From positions 10,188,341-10,252,340 of the forward strand of contig NZ_KQ976354.1 of the NCBI RefSeq assembly GCF_000346485.2: 64,000 nt of DNA. Direction: 5' to 3'. The position numbers were made by a program, and so were the translations under genes. The notes under the pieces are model-generated. The model was not told the origin of the DNA. It searched no databases and saw only the letters and a list, made by a program, of their open reading frames with translations. This DNA comes from Scytonema hofmannii PCC 7110. GTDB taxonomy: Bacteria > Cyanobacteriota > Cyanobacteriia > Cyanobacteriales > Nostocaceae. Below are positions 10,829 to 28,109 of this stretch, piece after piece (within the stretch, counting starts at the first letter, position 1; the number at the start of each line of letters is the position of its first letter).

Positions 10829-10841
10829 AATTATTTATTTA

Positions 10842-10875: not shown

Positions 10876-10877
10876 AT

Positions 10878-11812: not shown

Positions 11813-11841
11813 TGTCGCTTCTGTGCTCCTAAAAATAGGGC

Positions 11842-11934
11842 GACCCGGAGACTACGCCTGCTACAAGCATCCCGTATTGCTGCTACCTTCCGGTCCTGAC
11901 AAGGTTTGGGCGTTGCAGCCGCGTAGATCCAGGT
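11842..11934 (-). ncRNA. ffs: Signal recognition particle RNA, small bacterial type
   Basis: On the minus strand the core reads gtcaggaccggaaggtagca, the conserved SRP RNA apical domain with its GGAA loop and the asymmetric internal loop that binds Ffh. The ends pair: acctggatctacgc at the 5' side with gcgtagtctccgggt at the 3' side. This gives a single hairpin of about 93 bases, the usual size. The RNA guides co-translational membrane targeting. Exact ends are estimated from the helix. Confidence 0.88.
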
Positions 11935-11970
11935 CTTTTTTATAATAGCACTAAATTTTTCAACTGAGTG

Positions 11971-12237: not shown

Positions 12238-12267
12238 TCCTTTTACAACCTCATCAAACTGCTAAAA

Positions 12268-12318
12268 CAGTAACCAGTGACCAGTGACCAGTGACCAGTA
12301 ACCAGTGACCAGTGACCC
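12268..12318 (+). repeat. CCAGTGA/CCAGTAA heptad array
   Basis: About seven 7-bp units (ccagtga with some ccagtaa). The array ends directly at the start codon of the next gene, so the mRNA leader of that gene is built from the repeat. Confidence 0.9.
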
Positions 12319-12888: not shown

Positions 12889-12996
12889 GATTTATATCTT
12901 TTGCTTCTCAAACTCTTTTCATGCTTTATACTATTTTTTTACTCAATTTTTCTAAGAAAATCTATTGAGTTGTAAGTTCTAAAAATCACAATATCT

Positions 12997-13416
12997 ATGT
13001 CTGTAAGAAATATTCATCAGAGACTGAATACCACTTTCTTAAGTGTAGCGATCGCTCCCTTTTCTATTGCAGCAATTTCCACACCAAGTCCAGCACAAGA
13101 GATTGTTGCTCAAAAAGTTAATTGTAACAACGCTAACACGACACCAGAACTGAAATATTGTTCTCAACTGTCTTATGAAGCAGCAGATAAACGCTTAAAT
13201 GAAGTGTATAAAAGAGTGACATCTAATCTAATCAACGACCAGAAACAAATACTTGTTTCCGCACAGCAAGCTTGGATTAAATTCCGCGATAACAACTGTA
13301 ATTTTGAAACCTACGGTTCTCGTGGTGGGACGGGGTATGAAGTTTTCCGCAACGGATGTCTTGAGAGATTGACAAAACAACGCACAAAGGATTTGCAAGA
13401 TTTTCTCTCTCGGTAA
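12997..13416 (+). CDS. Secreted LprI-like protein (lysozyme-inhibitor/DUF1311 family)
   Basis: A 139-residue protein with an N-terminal signal peptide (hydrophobic residues about 13-28, likely cleavage after SPAQE or nearby). The mature part has the LprI pattern: paired cysteines, AADKRLNEVYKR, then QQAWIKFRDNNCNFE and a final cysteine helix. Members are periplasmic; the Mycobacterium protein inhibits lysozyme, but the role in cyanobacteria is not known. It is followed 20 bases later by a palindromic hairpin that can serve as a terminator. Confidence 0.82.
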   Translation: MSVRNIHQRLNTTFLSVAIAPFSIAAISTPSPAQEIVAQKVNCNNANTTPELKYCSQLSYEAADKRLNEVYKRVTSNLINDQKQILVSAQQAWIKFRDNNCNFETYGSRGGTGYEVFRNGCLERLTKQRTKDLQDFLSR

Positions 13417-13436
13417 TATTTTAGAAATGTAGCTCA

Positions 13437-13467
13437 GATCCCCGACTTCTTTAAGAAGTCGGGGATC
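13437..13467. terminator. 31-bp palindromic hairpin (dispersed repeat)
   Basis: A perfect 14-bp stem (gatccccgacttct with agaagtcggggatc) around a TTA loop. It lies just after the LprI gene. An identical copy is at 52296-52326 and a diverged copy at 21707-21737, so it is a dispersed palindromic element also placed where a terminator would be. Confidence 0.75.
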
Positions 13468-14218
13468 TAGACCAAGTTGCGCTAACACGAGTTATTTGTC
13501 TAATTCTTATCAAGAGTCGAGATGAAGTTCATAAACTGAAAGTACAAAGTTTGATGACAAGAACTTTGATGAAGATGAGCAAGCTTGGATGGTGCGCGAA
13601 CAACTACCAGAGTAGAGTGTTTTGTCCATTGCTCTCAGAATGGAATTCTGGGGCTATACAAACAAAGTCCACCTGCGTGGACTTTATAAGAAGTCCGCGT
13701 TCGCGTAGCGTGCGCTTTGCGCTTAGGCGAACTTGGTCTGTATAGGCTTGATTTCAATCACAAGCGTGTTTTTTCCAAGTTGGGATGCTCCCGTTTTCGT
13801 GGAACAATTGCTGTGAAACTTGATTGAGGACTGCGATAGATTGTAGCAAGCTTCCTGCAATTTTGCTACCAACTCGTACCGGATATCTACTGTTATTGCC
13901 AGCTCATGTATTTTTAGGTTTGAACAGCTAACATCATGTTCGACTGATGACTTATCCATGAATTGGTTTGCAGTTGCACTCAGTACAAAGACCTCACAAC
14001 TACAAACAGATTCTCGTCTAATCGCGATCGCTGTTGGCAAATCTTAATAACAACTCTTCACGAGATAAATTACTTCAAGTTTAAGAGCGATAAGCAGAGT
14101 AGAGCTTGTGCTTCGCGATAAGCACTCTTTCGGCTTGTGCTTCGCAGCGCACTCTAGTTTGTTTTACTTTGAGGTTTGTAGGAATCTTTGTTACTTTAGA
14201 GTAAAATGGAGTGTCGAT
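13468..14218. other. Relic-rich non-coding stretch
   Basis: No intact gene. About 13513-13545 resembles the C-terminal coding part of the Trypco2 gene near 15603 (agtcgagatgaagttcata shared). A repeat with tatacaaacaaagtccacct plus nested palindromes lies at 13651-13735 and recurs near 43345. About 13803-13935 is roughly 80% identical to the leader of the DUF4351 gene at 25555-25690. About 14037-14070 resembles that gene's 3' end (24592-24635). These are remains of the same cassettes found intact between 15 and 26 kb. Confidence 0.55.
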
Positions 14219-14440
14219 ATGATAAACGTAGAATTTCAAGCCAAAGTTGAGAATGGAGTCATTGTGGTTCCTCAAGAATATCAGCACGAATTGGCAGAGG
14301 CTAGTACAGTCAAAGTTGTTGTCTTCAAGCAGCCTAAAAAGCAATCCATGCAATTTGATATTATGGATGGACTAGCGCAAAACCCGATTCCAGTGCCAGG
14401 AATTCGCTCAATGACCCGTGAAGAAATGCACGAGCGATAA
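14219..14440 (+). CDS. Putative antitoxin of a PIN toxin-antitoxin pair
   Basis: A 73-residue protein whose N-terminus (NVEFQAKVENGVIVVPQEYQ) has the swapped-hairpin AbrB-like look of many cyanobacterial antitoxins, followed by a flexible toxin-binding tail. I chose the ATG at 14219; an upstream in-frame ATG at 14108 would add 37 residues derived from repeat sequence. The stop is followed at once by the start of a PIN-domain gene, the standard antitoxin-toxin order. It probably represses its own promoter and neutralises the toxin, if the toxin is still made. Confidence 0.7.
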   Translation: MINVEFQAKVENGVIVVPQEYQHELAEASTVKVVVFKQPKKQSMQFDIMDGLAQNPIPVPGIRSMTREEMHER

Positions 14441-14873
14441 ATGATGAGCGAACTTTGTTTTATCGACTCGAATATTTGGCTCTATCTCTTCATGGTCGAT
14501 CCAATCTCTAGTGAGACTGAAGAAATTAGAAAACGGTCTTTGGCAATCAATTTAATTAATAATGTTAATGCTGTTGTCAGCACTCAAGTTATTAATGAGG
14601 TGTGCTCTGTCTTGTGTCGAAAAGCCTCATTTACTGCTATAGCAAATTAAGCAAGTTATTCAATCCTTTTATAACCGAGTTTTAGTAATAGAACTAGACT
14701 ATGAAATTTTTATCAATGCGTCCGATTTACGAACTCGATACGGATTTTCGTTTTGGGATGGTTTGATAGTTGCTAATGCGTTATCTGTAAATAGTGATAT
14801 TCTTTACTCAGAAGATATGCAAGATAATTTGGTCATCGCTCGACAACTTACAATTGTAAACCCTTTTAAGTAA
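14441..14873 (+). pseudogene. PIN-domain toxin, single frameshift
   Basis: The first 69 codons give a PIN start with the acidic residue in CFIDSNIWLYLF and a second in the helix region. The frame then stops at 14650. A one-base shift near 14640 restores a full C-terminal half (RVLVIELDYE, then TRYGFSFWDGLIVANAL and ILYSEDMQD), which contains the remaining PIN acidic residues. Together the two parts make a normal PIN ribonuclease of about 144 residues. Either the gene is dead, leaving the antitoxin as an orphan, or there is a base error or slippage here. Confidence 0.75.
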
Positions 14874-15274
14874 AGCGAAATTATTGGGAAAAATACCTGC
14901 TTTCTCATGGTAGCGATCGCAATAGTTGCTTCCAAAATCCCGTCATGTTAAACAATGATATAGTTTTGCGATCGCTTATCCAACTACACAAACAGGACTT
15001 AGCGCCTACCAAGTTAAGCTGTCATCCTCTCCCTTTCACGCGTGGAGGGTTAGGGTGGGGTAAAACATAAGCTCAAACCGTCTATTTGTAAGCTATTTCA
15101 GACTGGTGCGTCATTGTTGCTTGGCAAGGGGGTTATTGCAAAGTAATAGGGGAATTGCTTATTTACAAGGATTATAGTTTAATAAGATTGGTTATCAGCC
15201 AAAATCGGGTTTGTGTAGTAGCAAACTACATTTGTTAAAAACTCATACATTAAAATCCTATTATAGCAAAACTA
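14874..15274. other. Non-coding gap upstream of the conflict operon
   Basis: No gene seen. Two HIP1-like octamers and a G-rich tract (gtggagggttagggtgggg, 15043-15061) occur. The last 100 bases, AT-rich, probably contain the promoter for the operon that starts at 15275. Confidence 0.4.
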
Positions 15275-15782
15275 ATGTCTGAACAAGATAAAGGCTCCAT
15301 TGAACTGGCTGAATTGATTCAACAGGTTAAAGAAGACCTTCTTTCAGTTGCACCAGGAAACGATAAGCCGGGTACGGCTTGCGTCAAGGGCGATCGCGAT
15401 GCTCCTTTCCTGTTTGTGGAGTCTGTGGAACTGGAGTTACAGGTGACTATCAAGCGGACTGGTAAAGCAGGTGCTAAGGGAAGCGTCAAAATTAACGTGC
15501 TGGGGGTTGGGGGTGAAATTGGTGGTGAGGTAGGAGGCGATAAGCTGGGTACAGCTTGCGCTTCGCGATAAGCCGGGTACGGCGGCGCTGCCATGCGATC
15601 GCAGTCGAGATGAAGTTCATAAGGTGAAAGTCAAACTATCTCCTCTGTTTGATAAAGAACTTTTAGTGAAGTTTTACGAGAAGAAGTATTCGGAAAAAAT
15701 GCCCGCGACGTTGAATAACAGTTTAACAGGACTCTTTAAAGGTGATGAGGAGAGCAACCTGAATGATGACCTTGGTGAATAA
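15275..15782 (+). pseudogene. Trypco2-domain protein, interrupted by a small palindromic repeat
   Basis: The start (IELAELIQQVKEDLLS, then VESVELELQVTIKR and GSVKINVLGVGGEIGGEV) follows the trypsin-co-occurring domain 2 (Trypco2) pattern, a component of EAD-type conflict systems. A palindrome-rich insertion at about 15538-15602 brings a stop at 15571. The expected ending (SRDEVHKVKVKLSPLF and a tail to the stop at 15780-15782) resumes in another frame. A related repeat segment also lies in frame near 15362-15395. It sits 11 bases before the EAD1 gene, as the first gene of the operon. Probably inactive, unless an N-terminal fragment is used. Confidence 0.68.
15538..15602. repeat. Palindrome-rich insertion inside the Trypco2 gene
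   Basis: About 65 bp made of two near copies of a gataagc-ggtac-gct-gcg unit ending in a HIP1 octamer. Similar units lie in frame at 15362-15395 and in the non-coding DNA near 14104-14155. It breaks the reading frame, and the flanks rejoin as a continuous Trypco2 sequence when it is removed. Ends are approximate. Confidence 0.6.
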
Positions 15783-15793
15783 TATTCAGACCA

Positions 15794-16534
15794 ATGAGTA
15801 AAGTTAACTTGCTGGAACTGCGATTTTATCCGATTGAAGGAAACCAACAGCGCTTTAAAGTGAGTGTGGAAGGTTTTTCTGGGGAAGTCCATCACGAACC
15901 AGTTCTACCTTTTTTGCGATCGCCTACACCTCCAGTGAAATCATCTGAAAATAAATTACCACCGACTATGACTTTGACATTAGACAATGAGCAACGAAGA
16001 AAACTGAGAGATGCTTTAATCAGTGCGTTTCCAAGTGAAGCTGAATTAGAGAGAATGCTAGACGATAAGTTAGGAATTCCTTTAAATACTATTGCAGATG
16101 GTAAAAATTATACAGAGCTTATATTCAATCTTATAAAATGGTTTAATAGCCAGGGGCAATCGCAAGACCTTGTGCAAGCTGCATATGCTGCTAATTCAGG
16201 TAATCCTGAGTTAAAAGAATTTATTCGAGAAATCAATTATCAGATACCTAATGAACCAAAGGACACGTTGGAACAGCAGATCGATACGCTTCAAGGTCGG
16301 TTACTTGTTTTATCTTCCAATCAATCTTGGAGTCGGGTGCAAGCAATTAAACTTAAAGAATTGAACAAACGATTGGAAATTCTGGGAAGTGACTTTGAAG
16401 CAGTATCTAACCAGTTGAATTACACCGAAAACGCTCAAACTCGCAATAACTTGCAACGACAGCTTGATGCGATCGAGCAGGATATGAAAAAAGTTGAAGA
16501 ACAGATTAACGAATTGGAACATGGTAGAAAGTAG
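15794..16534 (+). CDS. EAD1 (effector-associated domain 1) adaptor protein with coiled coil
   Basis: A 246-residue protein. Residues 1-55 form a beta-rich N-terminal piece (LLELRFYPIEGNQQRFKVSV) of unknown type. Residues about 60-145 match effector-associated domain 1: LRDALISAFPSEAELERML, then NYTELIFNLIKWFNSQG and DLVQAAYAANSGNPELKEF. The remainder is a coiled coil. EAD1 is a death-domain-like helical bundle believed to join effectors and sensors by homotypic contacts. No effector domain is fused here, so the effector is probably another EAD1 protein encoded elsewhere. The end overlaps the next start by 14 bases, pointing to translational coupling. Confidence 0.8.
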   Translation: MSKVNLLELRFYPIEGNQQRFKVSVEGFSGEVHHEPVLPFLRSPTPPVKSSENKLPPTMTLTLDNEQRRKLRDALISAFPSEAELERMLDDKLGIPLNTIADGKNYTELIFNLIKWFNSQGQSQDLVQAAYAANSGNPELKEFIREINYQIPNEPKDTLEQQIDTLQGRLLVLSSNQSWSRVQAIKLKELNKRLEILGSDFEAVSNQLNYTENAQTRNNLQRQLDAIEQDMKKVEEQINELEHGRK

Positions 16535-17879
16535 AGTTTCGCAAATCAAAAAGAAGGTTCTTCAAGAACGCTTAGACGCTCGGATGAAGGAATATAAGGC
16601 GCTGAATCAGCAATTAAACAACGAGGGAAATGCAGCAACTCTAGAGAAATTAAAGCGACAAATTCTGGAAAAAGAGAAAGAGATGCGAGAGGTTGAAGAT
16701 GAGCTAAATAGCCTTACCAATTCAGAATATCCTCTAGATTCTCTGCTTCAAATTCTTCAACTTTATCAAAAATCAGATATTTCTCCTATTAAAAGAGCGT
16801 ATCAAGTTTGCTGTCCTCAAGGGTTTCTGCAACAGAGCGATACTGTAAAAGACATTTTAGCAACTTTACAAGATCTCCCTAGTAATAATCAAAAATTTAC
16901 TCCTATTGATTTCTTTGTAGCCCATCTAGTTCTTGATTCTAAAATATCTCAAGAATTGGCTGAAAATATAAAAAAATGGGGAGAAAATAATATTGCTCAG
17001 TTTACTCAATTACTTCACGATTGTAAACAAGACTTGATTAATAAAAATCAACCTTCAGATTCTTATTTATTAATAAATATTAATCAAAAAAAATCGAATT
17101 TCAATCAATTTCAAGTGAAAGCTTGGTTGATTCCTAATATTCAAAATTATCAACCCGAACGTGAAGAAGGTTATAAAACTCTTTATGTATCTGATTCTCC
17201 AGATGATATCTTTACACTCGATGATTTGCCTCAAATCGTGGATTTGCTTTTAGAGCAAAGTGATGACTATCCTCTACAAAATCTAACTGTAGAATTTTTT
17301 CTACCTTACGAACTGCTTAGCTATCCAGTTGATAAATGTATAAAAGAGGAATATGGTTATGAAGAAAAAATTGGACAAAAATATAGAGTGACTGTCCGTG
17401 CATTTGAACGTTTGGACAAGAAGTATCGTAGCAAGCATGAAGTCCGTTGGCGCGAAAAATGGCAGAAAGTAACACAAGTATGTAAGTGTAGAGAGACATT
17501 TATATGTTCGCAAAATTATGAACCAACAGATCTTCGTCGATCGCTAGATGAAAAAGTAGGTTTGATACTTACTAAATTCCCAGAAGAGCCAAAAAAGACG
17601 AGCCAAATATTTTCTGTGTTGCTGATCGCTGCTACTCCCGTGGCTATTTGCCTAAGATCGACTTTTAAGAGTATAGAAACTCAAGACAACAACTTAATTG
17701 ATTTTCTTTTAGAATGCAGTATTGGAGAAATTCCAGAAAATGTTAGAAAAAAACGCCTTGATGCACCACAAGAAGAAGATGACCATGTAGGACATCATCT
17801 TTCGTTGATTTGGGAAGACCCCGATCGCCTAACACCTGATGTAGACTTTTTTTATCAAGTACCAAAATTTATATCTTAA
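16521..17879 (+). CDS. VMAP-like protein (vWA-MoxR associated protein)
   Basis: A 452-residue protein. I prefer the ATG at 16521 over the in-frame ATG at 16494, because it begins the coiled coil (residues 1-65) that continues the pattern of the preceding gene. Residues about 70-170 are a helical middle domain. Residues about 185-452 resemble the VMAP C-terminal domain, ending in the characteristic DDHVGHHLSLIWEDPDRLTP. VMAP is the third partner in MoxR-vWA ternary conflict systems. Its molecular activity is not known. Four bases separate its stop from the moxR start, so the genes are one operon. Confidence 0.72.
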   Translation: MVESRVSQIKKKVLQERLDARMKEYKALNQQLNNEGNAATLEKLKRQILEKEKEMREVEDELNSLTNSEYPLDSLLQILQLYQKSDISPIKRAYQVCCPQGFLQQSDTVKDILATLQDLPSNNQKFTPIDFFVAHLVLDSKISQELAENIKKWGENNIAQFTQLLHDCKQDLINKNQPSDSYLLININQKKSNFNQFQVKAWLIPNIQNYQPEREEGYKTLYVSDSPDDIFTLDDLPQIVDLLLEQSDDYPLQNLTVEFFLPYELLSYPVDKCIKEEYGYEEKIGQKYRVTVRAFERLDKKYRSKHEVRWREKWQKVTQVCKCRETFICSQNYEPTDLRRSLDEKVGLILTKFPEEPKKTSQIFSVLLIAATPVAICLRSTFKSIETQDNNLIDFLLECSIGEIPENVRKKRLDAPQEEDDHVGHHLSLIWEDPDRLTPDVDFFYQVPKFIS

Positions 17880-17883
17880 GCAT

Positions 17884-18879
17884 ATGAATGACTGGAAAAT
17901 CTTTAAGGGGGATGGAACGCAAAATAATGATTGGAAACTTCCAGAGCCGCCTAGTTGGAGAAATTTCAGTAACAATACTGACGAGGGGACTGCTAAAAAG
18001 CAAAGACGAGGTGAAACATACCAAGCCCGTCCTGAAGAAATAGAGTTAGTCAATGCAGCTTTATATTTACGGCGACCTTTATTAGTAACTGGTAAGCCAG
18101 GAACAGGTAAAACATCTCTGGCTTACGCCGTTGCTTATGAATTGAATTTGGGAGAAGTATTACACTGGTCAATTACAACTCGCACTACACTAAAGGATGG
18201 GCTTTATCGTTATGATGCGATCGGGCGGTTGCAGGATGCAAAAGGTGCAAGTGAAGATAATCTGAAAGAAATTGGCAAGTATATTGACTTAGGACCATTA
18301 GGAACGGCTTTACTTCCTTCAGAAAAACCAAGAATATTGTTAATCGACGAAATTGATAAAAGTGATATTGATTTGCCTAACGATCTACTGCACATCTTTG
18401 AGGAAGGAGAGTTTGAAATTCCAGAACTCAGGCGGATTGCTGGTAAATTAAATGAAGTGGAAGTGCAAACGGCATATACTAGTACAGCAGACACTAGTAA
18501 AGCAGAAACAACAGTAAAAATTCGCGAGGGACGTGTTCGTTGTACAACTTTTCCATTTGTGATTCTTACAAGTAATGGGGAAAGAGATTTTCCACCGCCC
18601 TTTTTGCGGCGCTGTCTGAGACTAAATATCAAAGAGCCTGAGCAGAAAGAGTTAGAGCGTATTGTAAGCGTACATCTAAAGTTAGACAACAAGTTACCCG
18701 AACAAGCAAATAGTTTGATTGCTAGGTTCCTGGATAAACGGAAAAAAGGAGAGTTAGCAACCGATCAATTGCTCAATGCAGTTTACCTAGTAACAAAAGG
18801 AAATTTTCCAATAGGCAACAATAAAGATGACTTAATTGAGCAGGTATTGAAGTATTTGGATAGTTCAGAGGAGTTATGA
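17884..18879 (+). CDS. MoxR-type AAA+ ATPase
   Basis: A 331-residue AAA+ protein. After a 45-residue N-terminal tail come Walker A GKPGTGKTS (Gly70, Lys76), Walker B LLIDEIDK (Asp155, Glu156), sensor 1 ILTSNGERDFPPPFLRR with its arginine finger, and a C-terminal lid. MoxR ATPases remodel partner proteins that carry vWA domains. The partner is the next gene, whose ATG overlaps this stop (ATGA at 18876-18879). It is inferred to be the ATP-driven switch between the sensor protein and the VMAP/EAD1 side. A truncated second moxR lies at 25703. Confidence 0.9.
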   Translation: MNDWKIFKGDGTQNNDWKLPEPPSWRNFSNNTDEGTAKKQRRGETYQARPEEIELVNAALYLRRPLLVTGKPGTGKTSLAYAVAYELNLGEVLHWSITTRTTLKDGLYRYDAIGRLQDAKGASEDNLKEIGKYIDLGPLGTALLPSEKPRILLIDEIDKSDIDLPNDLLHIFEEGEFEIPELRRIAGKLNEVEVQTAYTSTADTSKAETTVKIREGRVRCTTFPFVILTSNGERDFPPPFLRRCLRLNIKEPEQKELERIVSVHLKLDNKLPEQANSLIARFLDKRKKGELATDQLLNAVYLVTKGNFPIGNNKDDLIEQVLKYLDSSEEL

Positions 18880-21524
18880 TTGGATCGTTAATTGCTCGTT
18901 TAGAAAAGGCTGGGCTAGAGCTAAATGCGGAAGAAATTGCCGATATCCTTTGGCTGGCAAATCAGATGGAACAAGTTACCCAAAAGTCAAGTGAAACTAA
19001 GCAAGCATTGGAAGGATCTAGTCAACCTCCTACACAGATAAAATCTACTTCAGCAAATACTGCACAAACTTCTCCTCCATTACCTACCCCTTCTATAAAA
19101 GAGCCTACTGTTCCTGCTTACGCGTCTGATACCCTTCCTGAATCTAGTTCTTCTGACAAATCATCACCCACACTAGAAGGACTTCCCTTTAAAGCTCCTG
19201 CTGTAGCCGCTTTACAAAATTCATTGGCTTTAGGGCGATCAATTCGTCCCCTCATGCGAAAAGTGCCATCCCGAACAGAATTAGTTTTGGATGAAGAAGG
19301 TACGGCTCGACAGATTGCAGAATATCAGGTTTGGTCGCCTGTTTTGCAACCCGCACGGGAACGCTGGTTGGAGTTAGTGTTGGTGGTGGAAGAAACCCGT
19401 ACAACAGTTGTTTGGGCACAAACCATTGCAGAATTCCAAAAGTTAATGGAGCAGCATGGGGCATTTCGCAACGTGTATACTTGGAGTCTACAAACGAAAA
19501 CAGATGGAACACCCCAGCTTTTCCCAAAACAACAAAAAATCCGAAAAAAACAACGTTCTCGAAGTCCAAAAGAGTTATTGGATGCTACAGGTAGGCGATT
19601 GATATTGTTGATTAGTGATTGTATTTCACCTCTATGGTGGAAAGGGGAAATACACAAACTATTAAAGCTTTGGGGAGATCGCGTTCCAGTTGCGGTACTA
19701 CAATTGTTGCCAGAGCAATTGTGGGAGCGAACAGTATTAGGATTGGGAACCTCCGTGCAACTAAGCGCTCTCACTCCTGGTGTCCTCAATTCACAACTGA
19801 TTGTTAGTGGATTACCCATTTGGCAAGAAGAAAAACCAACAGTAGCTTTACAGTTTCCTGTAGTGACGCTAGAACCCGAACTCTTAACAGAGTGGGCGCG
19901 AGTCGTTGCTGGAGTTGGTAATATTCAGACATTAGGTGTTTTATTTGAGCCGAATTGGACTGAGTTCATACCAGAATCTCCATCTCCGAACTCCAAGCAA
20001 ACATCAGATCCAGAACTATTAGTCAAACGATTCCATGCAACAGCGTCTCCTCTTGCAAGACAATTAGCAGGTTTAATGGCAGCTGCACCTGTCAGTTTGC
20101 CTGTAATCCATCTCATTCAGAAAGAACTTTTGCCAAAATCAAGGCAAATTCACTTGGCAGAGGTTTTTATGAGTGGACTGTTGCAACTAGTTCAAGAGCA
20201 CTCACAGACTCAAGCAGATCGTTGGCAGTATAAATTTGTAGATGGAGTTCGGGAAAGTTTGCTTGGTTCTGTAAGAATTACCAAAATTGATGAGGTGTTG
20301 GAAGTTGTTTCTCAATATATAGCTAGTAAGACAGGATTACAAATCAAGAGTTTTGCAGCATTATTGGTTCCTAACCCTGAGTGGGATACTCACACGCAAG
20401 AAGAAATTATTCCCTTTGCTCAAGTTACCAAGCAGGTATTGCGTCAACTAGGTGAAGACTATGCTGCTTTAGTAGAACAATTAGAACAAAAATCGCAAGT
20501 TATCCCCAAATTTACAGAAATATCTGATAACCTTCCTAAGTTATTAACCTTTGAATTTGAGGTAGCAACTATCTCCATTGAGGATGAGACAGATAATTCT
20601 TTAGGTATCAACCTGCAACCTTTTGAATTTGAAGTAGCTACCATCGAACTGAAAAAAACAGGTTTGTTCCGGCGAAAAACAGAGTTGATAGTTAAACGGA
20701 GCCGGAAACAAGCTTGGGGCTTTATCGAAGATTTGGGGGATGGAGTGCAGCTAGAGATGGTAGCTATTCCTGAAGGTAACTTTTTGATGGGTTCGCCAAA
20801 AGATGAATTGGAGCGAAGAAGTAGTGAAGGACCTCAACATAAGGTGACAATTAAACCTTTTTTCTTAGGCAAATACCCAGTTACCCAAGCACAGTGGAAG
20901 GCTGTTGTGTCCCTTCCTCAAGTTAACCGCGAACTCAAACCCGATCCATCTTATTTTAAAGGTGACAATCGACCTGTGGAAAAAGTTTCATGGTATGATT
21001 GTGTAGAGTTCTGCGATCGCCTTTCCCGATACACTAACAAAACCTACCGTCTGCCTAGCGAAGCTGAGTGGGAGTATGCTTGTCGAGCAGGTACTACAAC
21101 TCCGTTTCATTTCGGTGAAACGATTACCTCTGATTTAGCTAACTATAATGCCAACTCTACTTATGGTTCGGGTGTTAAAGGTGTTTATCGTGAAGAGAAC
21201 AAACCTGTTGGAAGTACACCTGTCGGAAGCTTTAACGTAGCTAATGCTTTTGGAATATACGATATGCATGGGCAAGTGTGGGAATGGTGTGAAGACCATT
21301 GGCATGAGAATTATCATGGAGCACCTACAAATGCTGAAGCGTGGATAAATCGACTAGAAGATAATGAGAATCATTTAAGAATCCTGCGCGGTGGTTCGTG
21401 GTACATCAGCCCCGAACTCTGTCGTTCTGCGTGTCGCAGTTCCGTCAATCCGAAGAACAACACCGACCATATCAGTTTTCGAGTTGTGTGCGTTGTGTTG
21501 CCGATAACTCATAGCCGCCATTGA
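18876..21524 (+). CDS. SAV_2336/vWA-like protein fused to FGE-sulfatase domain (DGR target 1)
   Basis: An 882-residue fusion. Residues 1-75 are helical, followed by a Ser/Pro/Thr-rich linker to about 115. Residues about 150-330 are the SAV_2336 N-terminal-type domain, a vWA-like fold in which the metal site appears degenerate (VVEETRTT instead of DxSxS). Helical repeats follow to about 550, then two FEFEVATI motifs. From about residue 612 to the end is an FGE-sulfatase (C-type-lectin-like) domain with [30 protein letters not shown] and the RGGSW core. Its last 50 residues are a DGR variable repeat. The layout suggests a sensor whose ligand face is rewritten by mutagenic retrohoming while the vWA part talks to MoxR. 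Confidence 0.85.
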   Translation: MIGSLIARLEKAGLELNAEEIADILWLANQMEQVTQKSSETKQALEGSSQPPTQIKSTSANTAQTSPPLPTPSIKEPTVPAYASDTLPESSSSDKSSPTLEGLPFKAPAVAALQNSLALGRSIRPLMRKVPSRTELVLDEEGTARQIAEYQVWSPVLQPARERWLELVLVVEETRTTVVWAQTIAEFQKLMEQHGAFRNVYTWSLQTKTDGTPQLFPKQQKIRKKQRSRSPKELLDATGRRLILLISDCISPLWWKGEIHKLLKLWGDRVPVAVLQLLPEQLWERTVLGLGTSVQLSALTPGVLNSQLIVSGLPIWQEEKPTVALQFPVVTLEPELLTEWARVVAGVGNIQTLGVLFEPNWTEFIPESPSPNSKQTSDPELLVKRFHATASPLARQLAGLMAAAPVSLPVIHLIQKELLPKSRQIHLAEVFMSGLLQLVQEHSQTQADRWQYKFVDGVRESLLGSVRITKIDEVLEVVSQYIASKTGLQIKSFAALLVPNPEWDTHTQEEIIPFAQVTKQVLRQLGEDYAALVEQLEQKSQVIPKFTEISDNLPKLLTFEFEVATISIEDETDNSLGINLQPFEFEVATIELKKTGLFRRKTELIVKRSRKQAWGFIEDLGDGVQLEMVAIPEGNFLMGSPKDELERRSSEGPQHKVTIKPFFLGKYPVTQAQWKAVVSLPQVNRELKPDPSYFKGDNRPVEKVSWYDCVEFCDRLSRYTNKTYRLPSEAEWEYACRAGTTTPFHFGETITSDLANYNANSTYGSGVKGVYREENKPVGSTPVGSFNVANAFGIYDMHGQVWEWCEDHWHENYHGAPTNAEAWINRLEDNENHLRILRGGSWYISPELCRSACRSSVNPKNNTDHISFRVVCVVLPITHSRH
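21378..21506 (+). repeat. DGR variable repeat VR1
   Basis: A 129-bp segment at the 3' end of the vWA-FGE gene that aligns without gaps to the template at 24249-24377. It differs at 14 template adenines and at 10 other positions. The last 30 bases (gttgtgtgcgttgtgttg and flanks) are almost identical to the template, the expected initiation region for homing. The non-adenine changes mark this copy as the older or less recently rewritten target. Confidence 0.92.
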
Positions 21525-21591
21525 CACTTGAGCACTTTTGCCCTTGGCTCCTTTTTTCTTAGCACTTGGTTAGCGTAACGGAGTGGAGGAA
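21525..21591 (+). repeat. Shared downstream flank of both DGR targets (copy 1)
   Basis: About 67 bp after the first target gene, closely matching 22640-22705 after the second (cttttgcccttggctc and cgtaacggagtggag are common). The shared flank shows the two target 3' ends arose by duplication. It may also take part in homing or termination. Confidence 0.8.
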
Positions 21592-21706
21592 ATAAAACTT
21601 TTTTTTCGATTGAGTCTGCCTAATAACTAACTAGAACTCCATAAAAGTATGTTTTATTTAACTTGCCTTACGACGTATCATGCTTTTAGAAGAATTATGT
21701 TATTCC

Positions 21707-21737
21707 GATTCCTGACTTCTTGAAGAAGTTGAGAATC
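21707..21737. repeat. Diverged copy of the 31-bp palindrome
   Basis: gattcctgacttct, TGA loop, agaagttgagaatc: same element as at 13437 and 52296 but with several stem mismatches. It lies between the two DGR target genes. Confidence 0.6.
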
Positions 21738-21786
21738 TTGTAGCCGATCATCAACCATAAAAATCTTTTTTCCCTAACCTCTAAAA

Positions 21787-22632
21787 ATGACAAAAGTAGT
21801 CATCAACCGTTCTCGACAAACAGCACAATATTTTATTGAAGAATTGGGCTATGGAGTCCAACTAGAAATTGTGCTGATCCCTGGTGGCAGTTTTCTGATG
21901 GGTTCTCCAGAAGAAGAACTTGAACGCTTAAGCTGGGAAAGTCCTCAACACTCAGTCACAGTTAAACCTTTTGGTATGGGCAAGTACCCAGTTACTCAAG
22001 CACAGTGGCGAGCAGTAGCGTTTCTTCCCCAAGTGAACCGCGAACTCAAACCCGATCCATCTTATTTTAAAGGTAAAAATCGACCAGTTGAACGAGTTTC
22101 ATGGTATGATTGTGTAGAGTTCTGCGATCGCCTATCCAACTACACGAAAAGAACTTACCGTCTACCAAGTGAAGCTGAGTGGGAGTATGCTTGTCGAGCA
22201 GGTACTACAACTCCATTTCACTTTGGCGAGACAATTTCCACTGACTTAGCTAATTATAGAGGTACAGACGACGAAGAATATAAATGGTCAGGTTCCTACG
22301 GGAAAGGAAACAAAGGAATTTACCGCCAAGAAACCACACCTGTTGGCAGCTTTGGTGTAGCTAATGCTTTTGGGTTATACGATATGCACGGGCAAGTGTG
22401 GGAATGGTGTGCCGACCATTGGCACGAGAGTTATGAAGGAGCACCCACAGATGGAGAAGCTTGGATAGATTTGGGAAATAATGATAACCAAAGTCGTCTT
22501 CAGCGCGGTGGTTCGTGGTACCTCAACCCTGTTTACTGTCGTTCCGCGTGTCGCCTCTACTACAACCCGGACAACGGCTACGACCTTATCGGTTTTCGAG
22601 TTGTGTGCGTTGTGTTGCCGAGAACTCAGTAG
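21787..22632 (+). CDS. Free-standing FGE-sulfatase-domain protein (DGR target 2)
   Basis: A 281-residue single-domain protein closely related to the C-terminal domain of the preceding gene: [53 protein letters not shown] and RGGSW occur in order. Such domains in DGRs use the C-type-lectin fold to display variable residues; catalytic formylglycine-generating activity is not expected. The last 43 residues are a variable repeat matching the template except at adenines. Placed between target 1 and avd on the same strand. It may be a soluble binding protein working with the ternary complex, or a duplicated sensor domain that lost its vWA part. Confidence 0.9.
22495..22623 (+). repeat. DGR variable repeat VR2
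   Basis: A 129-bp segment ending three codons before the stop of target 2. It aligns gap-free to the template and differs at 17 positions, all of them adenine in the template (changed to T, C or G); all other positions are identical. Changes cluster in AAC/AAT codons. This adenine-only pattern is the hallmark of DGR mutagenic retrohoming and suggests recent activity at this copy. Confidence 0.97.
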
Positions 22633-22639
22633 CCCTTAG

Positions 22640-22705
22640 CACTTGAGCGCTTTTGCCCTTGGCTCTTCTTTTCTTAGCACTTAGTAAGCGTAACGGAGTG
22701 GAGCG
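22640..22705 (+). repeat. Shared downstream flank of both DGR targets (copy 2)
   Basis: Second copy of the flank at 21525-21591. It follows the stop of target 2 and precedes avd. Confidence 0.8.
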
Positions 22706-22801
22706 ATCTAAATTTTTTTTTCAAAAATCCAACTACACAAATATAGTATATCATGTAAATTCCAGTCTGTAAATTTTGCCTGAAATTTTCTCAGCACCCA
22801 C

Positions 22802-23158
22802 ATGGAAGAACTACCTATTATCCAAAAAACCTATGATTTGATTAAATGGTACGTGCCGATTCTGAATCGCCTACCTAACACTCATAAATTTATCTTAGGG
22901 GATAGGATGATTAAAGAACTGTACGATCTCTTAGAAAATTTAATAGATGCTCGATATGATACAAAAGATAAATTATCCAAATTAGAACCATTAAGCAGCA
23001 AACTGGATATTTTACGTCATCAAACCAGACTTTTACTGGATTTCGAGTTAATTGCCGTACATCGTTACGAATACGCAGGTAAGTTTATTAATGAGATTGG
23101 AAGGGAGTTAGGCGGTTGGATCAAACAGCAGAACAAGCTCAAGCAATCGAACAGCTAA
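22802..23158 (+). CDS. avd: DGR accessory variability determinant (Avd)
   Basis: A 118-residue all-helical protein with the four-helix-bundle pattern of Avd/bAvd and 23S-rRNA intervening-sequence proteins ([20 protein letters not shown] near the start, then a second helix with [19 protein letters not shown]). Avd forms a basic pentameric barrel that binds the reverse transcriptase and template RNA and is needed for cDNA synthesis in studied DGRs. It sits directly before the reverse transcriptase (13-base gap), the usual order. Basic C-terminal tail. Confidence 0.9.
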
Positions 23159-23171
23159 TACAAACGATCGC

Positions 23172-24230
23172 ATGAAACGCCACGGAAACCTCTACCCTCA
23201 AATTCTCGAATTGGAAAACCTCTTAATAGCTGCAAAGAAAGCCCAAAAAGGAAAAAGATTTCGAGATAACGTTCTAGCTTTTAATTACAACTTAGAAGAA
23301 GAATTAATTAAACTACAAACAGAACTAGCTCAGAAAACTTACCAACCCGGAGCTTATAAAACCTTTTATATCAAAGAGCCAAAAAGTCGGATGATTTCTG
23401 CAGCACCATATAAAGACAGGGTGGTGCATCATGCCTTGTGTAACATAATAGTCCCTCTTATTGAACCTGCATTTATAGATGATTGCTATGCTAATCGAGT
23501 AGGATTTGGCACACATCGCGCCTTACGTCAATTTACCCAGTTTTCTCGTTCCAATCGCTACGTACTTCAATGCGATATCAAAAAGTATTTTCCCAGTATT
23601 GACCATCAAATACTAAAGATTTTGCTTCACCGTAAAATCAAATGCTCCGATACACTGTGGTTAATTGATGCGATCGTTGACAACAGTAACGAACAGTTAG
23701 CCACAGTTGAGTATTTCGAGGGAGATGATTTATTAACACCAGTACAACGAAGGAGAGGTTTACCCATTGGAAATCTTACCAGTCAGTTTTTCGCCAATTT
23801 CTATCTGAATAATTTTGACCACTTCATTAAAGAACATCTAAAAGCCCAGAAATACCTTCGCTATGTCGATGACTTTGCTTTGTTTTCTGACGACTGGGGG
23901 TTTTTAACCGAAGCGCAGTGGGCTGTTGAAGAATATTTAGCTCAATTAAGACTCAAGATTCATCCGATAAAGAGCCAATTATTTGAAACAAAGCACGGTG
24001 CTAATTTTTTAGGCTTTCGCGTCTTACCAGACAAAATCCGAGTCCGCACAGAAAACTTGCGAAGAGCAAAGCGTAGATTGAGAAAGATGAAGAGAGACTA
24101 TATTTGTGATAAGATTACAGCAGATAAAGTAGCCCAATCAATTCAAAGTTGGTTTGCTCATTTAGAGCATGGGGATACATGGCGATTACGCCAACAGATA
24201 TTTGCCTCTCTTGCCTGGACAAGGGGGTAG
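23172..24230 (+). CDS. DGR reverse transcriptase
   Basis: A 352-residue group II-like reverse transcriptase. The polymerase motif is YVDD (residues 231-234) and motif 4 is LPIGNLTSQ (197-205), whose I-G-N-L-T-S-Q core is characteristic of DGR enzymes rather than of retrons or group II introns. Motif 3 ([14 protein letters not shown]) supplies the other catalytic aspartate. No maturase or endonuclease domain follows, as expected for this class. It copies the adjacent template RNA with adenine-specific errors. The template starts 19 bases after the stop. Confidence 0.96.
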
Positions 24231-24248
24231 AGAAGGGGTAGGCAACCC

Positions 24249-24377
24249 CGAATACAGCGCGGTGGTTCGTGGAACAACAACCCTGAAAACTGTCGTTCCG
24301 CGTGTCGCAACTACAACAACCCGGACAACGACAACAACAATATCGGTTTTCGAGTTGTGTGCGTTGTGTTGCCGAGA
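24249..24377 (+). repeat. DGR template repeat (TR)
   Basis: A 129-bp non-coding template with about 35 adenines, mostly in AAC codons in the phase of the targets. AAC codons can mutate at the two adenines to many amino acids but never to a stop. The conserved 3' part is free of adenine for over 20 bases except at its edges, which suits it as the invariant initiation region. It lies immediately downstream of the reverse transcriptase and is probably transcribed with it. Confidence 0.96.
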
Positions 24378-24575
24378 TCTCTCCTGTGCCAGAATTGTCG
24401 TATGGGAATGCGTCAAGCGTGCCAAAGAAGAGTTCAGACCTATTCCTGTGATGTTGGTAACAGCATCCAAATATCAAGCAAGATGGGGTAGCTTAGTAAG
24501 CATGCTGAAAAGTTGCCTCATCTCAGAAAAGAATTAACCGCAGATGAACGCTGATAGACGCAGATACGTCACTGG
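24378..24575. other. Post-template spacer with left 45-bp direct repeat
   Basis: About 200 bases without a gene. In studied DGRs the RNA just beyond the template folds to prime cDNA synthesis, so 24378-24480 may hold that element, but I cannot confirm a structure. From 24486 to 24530 lies a direct repeat (gggtagc, agtaagc, gctgaaa, gttgcctcatctca) nearly repeated at 26012-26056. Confidence 0.45.
24486..24530 (+). repeat. Direct repeat, left copy
   Basis: About 45 bp matching 26012-26056 with only about three mismatches over the first 41 bases (shared gttgcctcatctca). The two copies enclose the DUF4351 gene and the truncated moxR, suggesting a recombination unit. Confidence 0.7.
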
Positions 24576-25541
24576 TTAGTGTTCAGTGTTCCCAAATCTT
24601 GCCAACAGTTCTTCACGTGATAAATTAGGTAACTGTAATAACAAAGCCGCATAATCAGATGAAGGTAAATCGGCGATTGGCTGGATCGCTGCTGTTAACT
24701 CTTCATCCACTGTTCCAAACCGCATTCTCAACAAAGCATCTATTGTATTGCGACGATCTGCTTGAACACCTTGCTGAACTCCTTGTTCGATTCCTTGCTG
24801 AACTCCTTGTTCGATTCCTTGCTGAACTCCTTGTTCTCTAGCTTCGACGAGTCGCTGTTCGTACACTGGTGATAGCTGCATAATTAACTCTCTCTCCTCT
24901 TGGTCTAAATCTTGTTTCAGTTCTAATGTCGTTTTGAGATTACTCAATAAATCAATAGCTACTTTCCGCAAGGAATTTTCTGCTGGTAATGCTTGTAACT
25001 CTTGAATCGCTTGTTGCTGTACTCTTCCTTTTCCGAGTATCCTCAACCATAACGTCTCTTGTGTCTGTGGTAACTGATGTATTGCAACAATTGCTCCGCG
25101 ATAAAACTCTCCTAATAAGTAAACTCCTGGCAACCAGTTTTCTTCATCTAATATAGCTCTGAATCCCTCCAACTGAGCCTCTGAGGCTGTGGGTGACAGA
25201 ATCCACAGAAACGGTAATTCTTCTTCGACTATTTCCGTCCCGTTGCGCTTGGCTTCCCGTTCCAATTCTGCAAAAATGTCAAATAACTTGTTAAGACAAC
25301 TCCGTACTTCTGTGCGTTTGACAGCATTTCTAAATGGTTCAAACACTGTTGATGTGGCGGCAAACCGTCCTAACAACCCTAACTGTTCTCGCTCCTGACT
25401 TTCTTGAGGTGATGGTGCGAAATAAACATCTATTTCTTTAATTTCTGCAGCGACTTTCCGGCTGGTTTCGACTTTGCCTGATGGCGATAGCAATTCTTTG
25501 AAGTAATTCTTGGTAAATTGGTCGTAAGGAAATCTTGTCAT
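24576..25541 (-). CDS. Rpn-like / DUF4351-type protein
   Basis: A 321-residue protein of a type abundant in cyanobacteria, related to Rpn (recombination-promoting nuclease, PD-(D/E)XK) proteins. The start MTRFPYDQFTKNYFKELLSP and the motif IKEIDVYFAP fit the nuclease fold, with a D in the beta strand. Residues about 228-255 are a tandem QGVQQGIE octad repeat. The end (LPNLSREELLARFG) is DUF4351-like. It is opposite in strand to the DGR operon. Homologues are mobile and often decayed; relics of the same gene lie at 13.8-14.1 kb. The nuclease activity is inferred only. Confidence 0.65.
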   Translation of the reverse strand: MTRFPYDQFTKNYFKELLSPSGKVETSRKVAAEIKEIDVYFAPSPQESQEREQLGLLGRFAATSTVFEPFRNAVKRTEVRSCLNKLFDIFAELEREAKRNGTEIVEEELPFLWILSPTASEAQLEGFRAILDEENWLPGVYLLGEFYRGAIVAIHQLPQTQETLWLRILGKGRVQQQAIQELQALPAENSLRKVAIDLLSNLKTTLELKQDLDQEERELIMQLSPVYEQRLVEAREQGVQQGIEQGVQQGIEQGVQQGVQADRRNTIDALLRMRFGTVDEELTAAIQPIADLPSSDYAALLLQLPNLSREELLARFGNTEH

Positions 25542-25702
25542 TGTTTTTGAAGGACAATTGCTGTGAAACTGGATTGCGGACTTCGATAGATTGTAGCCAG
25601 CTTACTCTATTTTTGCTACAAAATGATACCGTATATATACTGTTATCTCAAGTGCTTGTGTTTTGAGGTTTGCACAGCGAGCAGAGCGATCGCATTACAA
25701 AG

Positions 25703-26016
25703 ATGCCTTCACCTCCACCTTGGCGACAGTTTTGGCATCCTGTTGACCCCAAAAATCTTGCTCCAAGTGCTCGTGATTATAGGAAACAACTTCCAAACAC
25801 TATTCCTATTCCTGATTCTGCTTCCTCTTCTGATTCTACTTCTAATTCTTCTGCCGAATTCTCCCGCGATAAAAACAGAGGACAAACTTTCCGCTTGCAC
25901 TCAGCTAAAGAGCAGATTGTTGATGCAGTTAATGCTGCTCTTTATCTGCGCCGTCCCCTTTTGGTAACTGGAAGACCGGGTACTGGAAAAACTTCGCTAG
26001 CGTATGCGATCGGGTA
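25703..26016 (+). pseudogene. moxR N-terminal fragment truncated just after Walker A
   Basis: From MPSPPPWRQFWHP to the Walker A GRPGTGKTSLAYA this follows the first 80 residues of the intact MoxR at 17884 in pattern, though with a different N-terminal linker. The frame ends within a HIP1-like gcgatcg, exactly where the right 45-bp direct repeat begins (26012). The whole ATPase core is missing. It is a relic of a second MoxR cassette, so a second ternary system probably once stood here. Confidence 0.8.
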
Positions 26017-26056
26017 GCCTAGTAAGCTTGCTGAACAGTTGCCTCATCTCAAGAAA
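26012..26056 (+). repeat. Direct repeat, right copy
   Basis: Right copy of the 45-bp repeat at 24486-24530. It begins at the truncation point of the moxR fragment, so the deletion that removed the ATPase core probably used this sequence. Confidence 0.7.
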
Positions 26057-26362
26057 TTGATATCATGACAAAAAAAGACAATTGGAATTGGAAAGGCATT
26101 TTTCTCTGGACGGGCGAGGACGCCCGTACCACAAGAAGCAATTTTGGGCATTTTTCTCTGGACGGGCTAGAAGCCCGTACCACAAATTCAACTAAGCTAA
26201 TAATTCTTTAACTTGCACAGCCTTAATAAACCTAGCTCTTGTGACTCTTGTGACTCTTGTGACTCTTGTGGCTCTTGTGACTCTTATGACTCTTGTGGCT
26301 CTTGTGGCTCTTGTGGCTCTTGTGGTACGGGCGTCCTCGCCCGTCCTACTGTGCAAATTCAA
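26057..26362. other. Repeat-filled non-coding stretch
   Basis: A short frame at 26065 (MTKKDNWNWKGIFLW) may be another relic start. Two copies of the gacgggc-gcccgtacc palindrome family lie at about 26110-26190, and a tandem array of ten 9-bp units at 26236-26325, followed by a further half palindrome. No gene. Confidence 0.5.
26236..26325 (+). repeat. Ten tandem copies of a 9-bp unit (ctcttgtgR)
   Basis: Ten nearly identical 9-mers, ctcttgtga or ctcttgtgg, with one variant (ctcttatga). The array ends against a gtacgggcgtcctcgcccgtc palindrome half. A slippage-prone microsatellite with no visible coding role. Confidence 0.9.
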
Positions 26363-27640
26363 CTACCGCTTTCCATTGGGACGTTGAATAATGGTTTCCA
26401 CAACTCGCCGCTTTGCATTCGGGTCAATCCCTACCAAGCGCACATACTCATTGCCATGTTCTCCAAGACAAGATTCAATGGTTGAGATAGCATCATCTTC
26501 AGCAGTGATGGGGCTTGTTATACCACTAGTCCATGAACCTGTACGAAAGCGACGCTCATCTACATACTCAATCCCAATTCTGTAACCTTGAGATAATATC
26601 TGACGCACTTGTTCTATTGTCTCAAGACTTAATTTTGTATTGAGTCGTTGCTGTTGTTGGTGACCATGACCATTTGTTGGTGCTACAGGCTGAGTAGAAC
26701 CATTCGTTGATGGCTGATAAGTTGGCGCTGCAGGTGGAGGTGCTGGTTGATAATTTGAGCGCATCCTGGTGTTGTACTCAGTGACTAATCGAGAATCATC
26801 AACTCGTTTTTGCTCGCCAACCATCAACTGACCTGTCTCAAGTAAATGGGATAAGCTAAAATCTGGCTTTCTAAATTGTGGCGGTCCTTCAACACTATTT
26901 ACGATACGCCGGGATACGTGTTCAATCCCCACATCATAAATAAACTGGCGGATTTGTTCGTCATAAATTCGCGATCGCATAGCACTGAAGAAATCTACCG
27001 ACTGATTTGGAAAAGTATCTACCAGTTGTTCGACATCTCGTTGTGAAAGCCCGTCTTCACTAAAAATCCCCCCGACGATACCAACTTTATCATTTCGGTC
27101 TGGGTCCCAGTAAAATTTCTCCATCCTGCCATCACGAATAAGTGGCGCGTAGAGGGTAGAGAAATCATTCCCTGTTACAATAATTGGTACGCGATGTATA
27201 GGTGTAGCGTCGTAACTACCAGGCAGTTGCACATCAGTTGGATTGTCAGCGATATTCATCAGCGTGGCATTCACCAATTGAGTATTGACCGTGTATTGCG
27301 TACCTTCATCAAAACGTCCCGCACCTGCATCTAAATCGTTAATCATCAACACGCACATTTTACCGCGCACGCGAATGAGTTCGGCTGTTTCTCGATAGCG
27401 CAGACGAATGAGACGTGCTGGATCGCCAGCATCAGGGCTTTCGAGTTCACCGCCTGATAAGAGAGTCGCTTCGATACCCATTCTCTCGAAGACTAACTCA
27501 CATTGAAAAGACTTACCCTCACCTTTGCGACCGTGAATACCCAGAATTAGGGGAACTCGGATACCAGGAATATCGAGAAAATTTTTGGTGATGTGGACAG
27601 CGAGTTTGTCCAAAAAGCGAGGGGAAATATAATAACCCAT
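26363..27640 (-). CDS. rca: Rubisco activase with RbcS-like C-terminal domain
   Basis: A 425-residue AAA+ protein. I chose the ATG at 27640 (MGYYISPRFLDK) because GGAGAGG lies just upstream; an earlier in-frame ATG overlaps it. Walker A is GIHGRKGEGKS, Walker B MCVLMINDLDAG, and the DPDRNDK pore and sensor regions follow. After a Pro/Gln-rich linker (about 290-340) the last 85 residues (LSLETIEQVRQILSQGYRIG, then EYVDERRFRTGSW) are a Rubisco small-subunit-like domain. In cyanobacteria this SSUL domain tethers the activase to Rubisco and carboxysomes, and the AAA+ ring removes inhibitory sugar phosphates. No rbc genes are adjacent. Confidence 0.95.
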   Translation of the reverse strand: MGYYISPRFLDKLAVHITKNFLDIPGIRVPLILGIHGRKGEGKSFQCELVFERMGIEATLLSGGELESPDAGDPARLIRLRYRETAELIRVRGKMCVLMINDLDAGAGRFDEGTQYTVNTQLVNATLMNIADNPTDVQLPGSYDATPIHRVPIIVTGNDFSTLYAPLIRDGRMEKFYWDPDRNDKVGIVGGIFSEDGLSQRDVEQLVDTFPNQSVDFFSAMRSRIYDEQIRQFIYDVGIEHVSRRIVNSVEGPPQFRKPDFSLSHLLETGQLMVGEQKRVDDSRLVTEYNTRMRSNYQPAPPPAAPTYQPSTNGSTQPVAPTNGHGHQQQQRLNTKLSLETIEQVRQILSQGYRIGIEYVDERRFRTGSWTSGITSPITAEDDAISTIESCLGEHGNEYVRLVGIDPNAKRRVVETIIQRPNGKR

Positions 27641-28109
27641 GAACCTCTCCGATTGTTTCAATCCCTATAAGGGATCGCTTGGGGAAGGATAAAGTATGAA
27701 GCATAAAGAATCAAGAATTTTAAGCCTAGTGGAGAGTCGTCACATTTCCTACTTTTGGCGGTTGACTTAAATTTTGCCCTTATACTTCATGCTTTATCCT
27801 TCAAGTAGCTTCCTTCAATCTTAATTTCTTCTGGCTGTGACTTTTCAGCCCTTTTGGAAAAAAAGCTATTTTCTCTACTTATCGATCCAATTAGGAAGCC
27901 GCATTTAAATAACGTACCAATCAGTTCATAACAACAATCGTAGGGGCGCAATGCCTTGCGCCCCTACAAATCCTTCTGTTGATGAACTCCCCCACCCTAA
28001 CGAAGCAGGTCGGGGCTTTGATGCGAATAATTTGGTAAATTTTTACTTGAAAGTCGGATTCATTATGAGTATGATTTATCAGTAGATTCACAAAGGAGCC
28101 GCTTTACTC
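27641..28109. other. Divergent promoter region between rca and the peroxiredoxin gene
   Basis: No gene. Two inverted matches (aagtatgaagcataaa and ttcatgctttat) frame 27690-27800. A strong palindrome, gtaggggcgcaa tgc cttgcgcccctac, sits at about 27941-27968. The stretch must contain the promoters of rca (leftward) and of the peroxiredoxin hybrid (rightward); an AAAGGAGC ribosome site lies before 28110. Confidence 0.5.

Follow-up and report, generated by a model that had tools for sequence, protein, structure and literature searches.

The 64,000-nt stretch of the Scytonema hofmannii PCC 7110 genome analyzed here (NZ_KQ976354.1, positions 10,188,341 to 10,252,340 of the forward strand; hereafter the window, whose own positions serve as coordinates) carries a diversity-generating retroelement (DGR), all parts of which lie on the + strand. 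The cassette begins with two target genes, each encoding a C-terminal formylglycine-generating enzyme (FGE) domain and holding a variable repeat (VR) near its 3' end. Target 1 (18876-21524, 882 aa) joins this domain to a long N-terminal region and contains VR1 (21378-21506), whereas target 2 (21787-22632, 281 aa) consists only of the FGE/C-type-lectin fold and contains VR2 (22495-22623). They are followed by the gene for the accessory protein Avd (22802-23158), the reverse transcriptase (RT) gene (23172-24230), the template repeat (TR, 24249-24377) and a structured RNA element of 153 nt (24371-24523), which overlaps the last 7 nt of the TR, such that Avd and RT stand between the targets and the TR.

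A first-pass annotation, made from the sequence alone, had reported Avd and a DGR-type RT with the motifs IGNLTSQ and YVDD, and both proteins are borne out by profile and structure searches. The RT is an intact open reading frame of 352 aa (Pfam RVT_1) with both motifs, and its best PDB match is chain A of 8ub7 (8ub7_A, E 1.6e-48), with a group II intron-type RT far behind (2.7e-21). The two motifs are unchanged in four of six other aligned RTs; the remaining two, L093 and L100, are the most distant of the six and read LGNLTSQ, with YCDD in addition in L100. PADLOC assigns the RT to generic RT families (best E 4e-50). Avd scores 139.8 bits against the curated DGR Avd family NF033474 of NCBIfam (cut-off 80), and is also matched by PHROG 3206 ('Avd protein of DGR'), by Pfam bAvd and, in the PDB, by 4dwl (Bbp7, E 8e-5) and the Avd chain 8ub7_B (E 1e-3). 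The chains of 8ub7 are labeled 'Reverse transcriptase' and 'Avd' in the PDB, and we take this entry, as well as 4dwl, to derive from the Bordetella phage DGR.

Adenine-biased divergence of the variable repeats

When TR and VR2 are aligned without gaps over 129 columns, 17 mismatches are found and all 17 fall on a template adenine (A to T in 11, A to C in four and A to G in two), with none at C, G or T sites. Given 35 adenines in the TR, the hypergeometric probability of this concentration is 6.4e-12, and the same test gives 1.0 for each of C, G and T. The alignment of the first-pass annotation, with its 17 differences and about 35 adenines, is thereby reproduced exactly. Its wider claim that templates and targets differ by adenine-only substitutions, tabulated here by template base, holds for VR2 and fails for VR1, which has 24 differences from the TR, 14 at A and 10 elsewhere (P = 3.4e-4). 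Among the 94 non-A sites of the TR, VR2 is identical at all 94 and VR1 at 84. When the TR is compared without gaps with every position on either strand of the window, VR2 gives 112/129 identities and VR1 105/129, the next best segment reaching only 57.

Read in the frame of the targets, the TR has 10 AAC codons; 21 of its codons contain adenine, and in 20 of these an A-to-N change cannot create a stop. The sequence space accessible from the TR adenines is computed as about 10^21 DNA and 10^18 protein sequences. Counting the stop codons, 9 nt of target 2 remain beyond VR2 and 18 nt of target 1 beyond VR1. Near their 3' ends, the repeats share an uninterrupted identical run with the TR of 37 nt for VR2 and of 30 nt for VR1, the latter stopping two bases before the TR end. 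No stem-loop common to both targets could be established downstream of the VRs.

The same base specificity is observed in relatives. An RT search of genome contigs yielded 42 loci, of which 39 belong to records whose titles name cyanobacteria or cyanobacterial genera. A near-repeat pair with mismatches clustered at template A (P < 1e-3) is present in 31 of the loci, as against two for T and none for C or G. The best 90-nt window of the template copy starts 25-206 nt past the RT match in 25 of the 31 A-biased loci, as it does here. Some observations count against so uniform a picture: the template copy lies elsewhere than just 3' of the RT in the other six, 11 of the 42 loci have no adenine-biased pair (some of these with a partial RT or on a short contig), and VR1, as discussed below, departs from its template at ten non-adenine sites. 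Could the TR and VRs nonetheless be plain tandem duplicates that mutation and selection have driven apart, with no retroelement involved? The target genes are indeed tandem paralogues, their two FGE domains being identical at 517 of 684 nt (75.6%) outside the VRs, but a DGR-type RT and Avd are in place, every VR2 difference is at an adenine and the adenine bias recurs in the relatives' loci; we rejected this explanation on base specificity and give it practically no credence. A DGR mechanism is very probably the origin of the TR/VR pattern.

The ten non-A differences of VR1 were compared with 31 of 45 relatives' TRs, our own TR and TRs of other length being set aside. On average, 5.8 of the ten sites agree with the TR and 1.9 with VR1, though at positions 51 and 82 the relatives' TRs favor the base of VR1. 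VR1 has seemingly not been rewritten lately, because the relatives' templates side with the TR over VR1 at these sites; by the same overall count, a change of the TR after the writing of VR1 was rejected as the main cause. An origin of VR1 from the sister templates of the same genome was likewise rejected, since their non-A identity to VR1 is 0.73 (TRb) and 0.60 (TRc) as against 0.89 for the TR of the window (TRa). Judged by these comparisons, VR1 was probably once written from the TR or a close template and then drifted, and VR2 was written more recently.

Two close relatives of the RT are encoded elsewhere in the genome, one at C1:3.43 Mb (78%) and the other at C1:10.13 Mb (70%), making three DGRs in all, and there are six distant RTs at E <= 1e-5. 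A set of 17 RGGSW-type gene ends and repeats was compared with TRa; 11 of them are neither template repeats nor VR1 or VR2, and we put forward none of the 11 as a trans target of TRa, the highest non-A identity being 0.83 (the VR of the 3.43-Mb DGR) in a comparison that covered FGE genes with an RGGSW-type motif. A whole-genome DNA search with TRa gave seven matches, namely TRa itself, VR2, VR1, two at the 3.43-Mb DGR (its TR and its VR), and two short segments, of 53 nt at 7.26 Mb (85%) and 42 nt at 5.42 Mb. Remote targets are seen for the 10.13-Mb DGR, where two open-frame genes at 1.736 Mb (L021) and 9.116 Mb (L022) have 7/7 and 9/9 differences at A over 120 nt, cleaner than the local VR of that DGR (8/10 at A).

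A structured RNA 3' of the template

The sequence just 3' of the TR is conserved across relatives, in which the element also follows the TR. We aligned 42 of 46 distinct element hits (alignment A3), in which the window itself replaces L001, and L039 (with a diverged 3' half), L082, L085 and the second L075 copy were left out; A3 superseded A2 and A1, the last of which had 36 sequences and 27 pairs, 20 of them changed on both sides. RNAalifold folds A3 into 38 pairs, 28 of which have changes on both sides. Paired cells amount to 97.0% versus 83.9% in shuffled alignments, two-sided cells to 247 versus 68.7 and the covariation score to 0.577 versus 0.304, and on all five measures the observed values were reached by none of 500 shuffles. 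Since related sequences may exceed shuffles without any structure, most weight is carried by a control in which partners were slid by 1-3 columns, whereupon pairing drops to 31-48%, and by the 3' helix, whose 12 pairs all vary on both sides. The fold itself comes from the alignment on which these measures were taken.

Rfam has no match to positions 20500-26500 at E up to 1. A covariance model built from the alignment, R1, recovers 34 of the 42 RT loci, 16 of which lie outside the alignment (several of these being near-copies of aligned ones), and the element of the window at 145.7 bits, a score to be read with the window's own sequence being part of R1. The loci missed are L093, L100 and L101, from non-cyanobacterial records, the short contig L078, and L094, L096, L099 and L102, where the RT match itself is partial. 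By analogy with the DGR of the Bordetella phage BPP-1, whose RT and Avd are homologous to those described here, and where RT-Avd is recruited, and cDNA synthesis primed, by a folded spacer 3' of the TR (PMC12875486), the element most likely serves the template RNA as its scaffold and corresponds to that spacer. The two systems differ in gene order, which is avd-TR-RT in BPP-1 (PMC12875486) and Avd-RT-TR here, and in their targets, a phage tail fiber in the former and FGE-fold proteins in the latter.

A trailing RNA structure has been predicted to be conserved (reviewed in PMC8867640), as has the structure of the flanks in Nostoc punctiforme, whose TR RNA is very highly expressed (PMC12691664), and 70 copies of the potential DGR1 non-coding RNA element of Nodularia spumigena are on record (PMC3610870). 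A consensus for the RNA that follows the TR, and occurrences of it without RT, were not found in the accessible text of the cyanobacterial DGR literature (PMC10907252, PMC7517822), nor was a matching account found in the literature on the structure or covariation of DGR template RNA, where an earlier description may exist. The covariation-supported consensus and the RT-less occurrences are possible novelties beyond the known class.

In a set of 120 related genomes, our own included, an RT is found at E <= 1e-80 in 27 (with the match in G029 confined to residues 155-351), and every one of them also has R1 at E <= 1e-3, a level reached in 54 genomes overall. In 14 genomes R1 reaches E <= 1e-20 but an RT at E <= 1e-80 is not found, and 13 more have only a weaker R1; an RT search of the 14 at E <= 1e-25 gave an RT fragment in three and nothing in eleven. 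Some of the RT-less genomes are drafts in which assembly gaps are possible, but G010 and G066 consist of just 4 and 2 contigs. We inspected 16 R1 loci chosen for having no known full RT alongside, two of them in our own genome and two in RT-bearing genomes. None of the 16 contains a full-length RT, three contain RT pieces, and in nine a VR with adenine bias (P < 1e-3) is present. Across a phylum sample, R1 is found at E <= 1e-8 in 27 of 292 genomes.

The genome of PCC 7110 itself has four strong R1 copies for its three DGRs, and a fifth, weak copy (38.9 bits). The fourth strong copy (C1:10956356-10956512, 143 bits) lies in an array of FGE genes (L108, G000:C1:10948000-10967900, where G000 is our own genome), and tblastn found no RT or Avd in this region of 19.9 kb. 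Over 117 nt, its orphan TR differs from two VRs with 10/13 and 8/9 differences at A. This TR may be a relic, because the first VR sits in a truncated gene and the second, counted past one inserted base, in a frameshifted one. Recent loss of the RT and service in trans by another RT both fit the RT-less templates, and trans service has been reported to account best for certain loci of Thiohalocapsa (PMC10907252). We also entertain, as a tentative and rather improbable proposal, that the cyanobacterial template RNA with its 3' fold is a separable unit, that RT-less cassettes of target, TR and fold are non-autonomous elements served in trans by any DGR RT of the cell, and that the genome runs a network of interchangeable templates and remote targets in place of isolated cassettes; in PCC 7110 this network would comprise three RTs with four templates and no fewer than eight VRs.

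FGE-fold targets and their putative conflict-system neighborhood

The first-pass annotation had placed the 3' ends of both targets in the RGGSW region of an FGE-sulfatase domain, a known display fold, and this reading agrees with Pfam (FGE-sulfatase, E 8.1e-54 for target 2) and with the C-type-lectin fold found in the structure search of target 2. The AlphaFold model of target 2, based on 25 sequences, has a pLDDT of 83, and its Foldseek matches include PvdO, FGEs and the Treponema denticola variable protein 1 (PDB identifier 2y3c), a protein of a different host, with which it shares the fold (TM 0.72, 24% identity in the fold alignment) and sequence similarity (E 4e-17). The strength of the domain match and the presence of FGE structures among the best fold matches might indicate that the diversified proteins are formylglycine-generating enzymes of varied substrate range and not sensors. 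The catalytic site of FGE is a cysteine pair, and when the human FGE segment GGSYMCHRSYC is aligned to target 2 only the second cysteine meets a cysteine, whereas the first falls on a diversified codon and is replaced in both targets and in the TR (C336S and C341S mutants of human FGE are named in PDB titles, and we assigned the numbers from the spacing of five). The diversified targets are unlikely to be FGE enzymes, because the first cysteine lies on a diversified codon in both; an active enzyme was rejected on the cysteine pair, and we regard it as very improbable.

The N-terminal part of target 1 is of the SAV_2336 type (NF041121, 529 bits, cut-off 200), and is likely a degenerate vWA domain, as judged from motif and model comparisons. 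The vWA motif is DxSxS, and a vWA-type DESxSM is found in five of nine aligned rows; in a low-confidence model of target 1 (pLDDT 62), vWA domains including that of NorD are among the weak matches (E 0.02-0.07). On the other side of the balance, the window has EETRT at this place, a degenerate MIDAS-type motif, no fold match reaches E 0.001 and other folds appear beside vWA. Pfam gives no vWA match in target 1, and a PDB search with a profile of its N-terminal part found nothing up to E 0.1.

Directly upstream of target 1, Pfam identifies genes of a putative conflict system, all on the + strand. These encode a Trypco2 (trypsin-co-occurring domain 2) protein (15275-15571; PF19631, E 2.8e-12), an adaptor protein with TCAD3, EAD1 and EAD9 (15794-16534; PF19972, PF19955 and PF19962), a VMAP protein with EAD9, VMAP-M1 and VMAP-C (16494-17879, start codon uncertain; PF19962, PF19963 and PF20028) and, immediately before target 1, an AAA+ ATPase (17884-18879; Pfam AAA_5 and AAA), which we call MoxR-like from its context and the literature. 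VMAP (MoxR-vWA) ternary systems, as described by Kaur et al. 2020 (PMC7159879), share with this locus VMAP-M/C, EADs, Trypco2, a MoxR-like ATPase and the FGE (FGS) domain, FGS domains being reported there for cyanobacterial systems. In contrast to them, the MIDAS motif here is degenerate, and no effector (peptidase, TIR or nucleotide cyclase) is found among the ten proteins scanned with Pfam, which were selected open reading frames; the latter, like the degenerate motif, speaks against the assignment.

Cyanobacterial DGRs of clade 5E (Dore et al. 2024, PMC10907252; Vallota-Eastman et al. 2020, PMC7517822) share with the present one the RT, Avd, TR and FGE/C-type-lectin targets, and also MoxR/VMAP neighbors, several DGRs per genome and remote targets; the likeness rests on gene content and context, and we found no difference in kind from what these papers set out. 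By sequence, we place the locus as a DGR of the cyanobacterial type set in a ternary conflict system of the VMAP kind, a class that has been published. Its kind, its context and the sensing hypothesis are already known from publications, Dore et al. 2024 having described DGRs of this class in cyanobacteria and proposed antigen sensing (PMC10907252). That the targets serve as sensors here is, in our estimate, an evenly balanced proposition.

Elsewhere in the window, about 10 kb upstream of the cassette, a subtilase gene (Peptidase_S8, 3863-5095) gives, apart from the RT, the only marked PADLOC match (subtilase model, 2e-26), the rest being weak. It is followed by the gene of a 984-aa NACHT-NCH2 protein, and the two (3863-8200) are possibly another conflict system. 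On the other side, a Rubisco-activase-like protein whose C-terminal domain is that of a Rubisco small subunit (26363-27661) adjoins the cassette.

Present state and proposed working of the cassette

Downstream of the RNA element lie two remnants on the + strand, the N-terminal part of a second MoxR-like gene (25670-26017; over 72 aa 47% identical to the ATPase encoded at 17884-18879) and, overlapping its end, the 3'-terminal piece of another DGR RNA element (26008-26056; 90% identity over 49 nt to 24482-24529), of which 26008-26048 matches R1 with 18.4 bits (E 3e-4). By these similarities, 25670-26056 is probably what is left of a second copy of the entire unit that has collapsed. Short imperfect repeats of 29-40 nt, both direct and inverted, are present at 26095-26346 and also near 36.5, 55.4 and 60.2 kb.

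In the sister species (G001), a span of 6.3 kb at C1:8.91 Mb holds the homologues of window positions 10456-13415, 24594-25674 and 26356-27876, and the block of about 13.4-24.6 kb (13415-24594) is missing at the matching place. Between the last two of these pieces are a 66-bp Trypco2 match (15342-15407) and a piece matching 13805-13983, and neither a DGR RT nor R1 is matched in G001. The block is dispensable, since the sister species lacks it. It may have been lost there or never have been present at this spot, and the Trypco2 piece favors loss.

These observations bear on whether the cassette still works. It could have been recently active by the same DGR mechanism and now be idle or silenced, VR2 being the frozen last product; the drift of VR1, the 14 of 120 genomes with a strong template-RNA match in which a full-length RT was not found, the sister species and the reduced second copy would all suit this possibility. 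Yet the RT and Avd have intact frames, the RT keeps its motifs, and VR2 equals the TR at every non-A site while the target domains outside the VR have diverged to the identity given above. We consider an idle cassette possible though somewhat unlikely, and present activity, as far as it can be read from the sequence, the rather more probable state. 'Active-looking', the term of the first-pass annotation, is a fair reading of VR2. A culture of Nostoc punctiforme has been reported to show low-level adenine-specific variation in both targets (PMC12691664).

In such an active cassette, the region 3' of the RT gene would be transcribed as a single RNA containing the TR and the folded 3' element. 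The folded part would be bound by RT and Avd, and the TR copied with errors at adenines. The resulting cDNA would replace VR2, and formerly perhaps VR1 too, anchored by the identical 3' run. Each round of such retrohoming would alter only the residues of adenine-bearing codons in the FGE/C-type-lectin domain, and hence the ligand binding of that domain. In target 1, where the FGE domain is carried on a probable vWA-like part beside the MoxR-like ATPase and VMAP, binding, perhaps in the sensing of invaders, may be passed on as a signal to an effector.

The locus thus presents an intact-looking programmed hypermutation system attached to a possible bacterial immune sensor, and the two sister DGRs of the same genome provide internal comparisons for it. 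The RNA consensus lets template RNAs be found independently of the RT, and some have turned up without a full-length RT. It also makes the putative scaffold role of the RNA in priming and in the choice of RT testable outside the Bordetella phage model.

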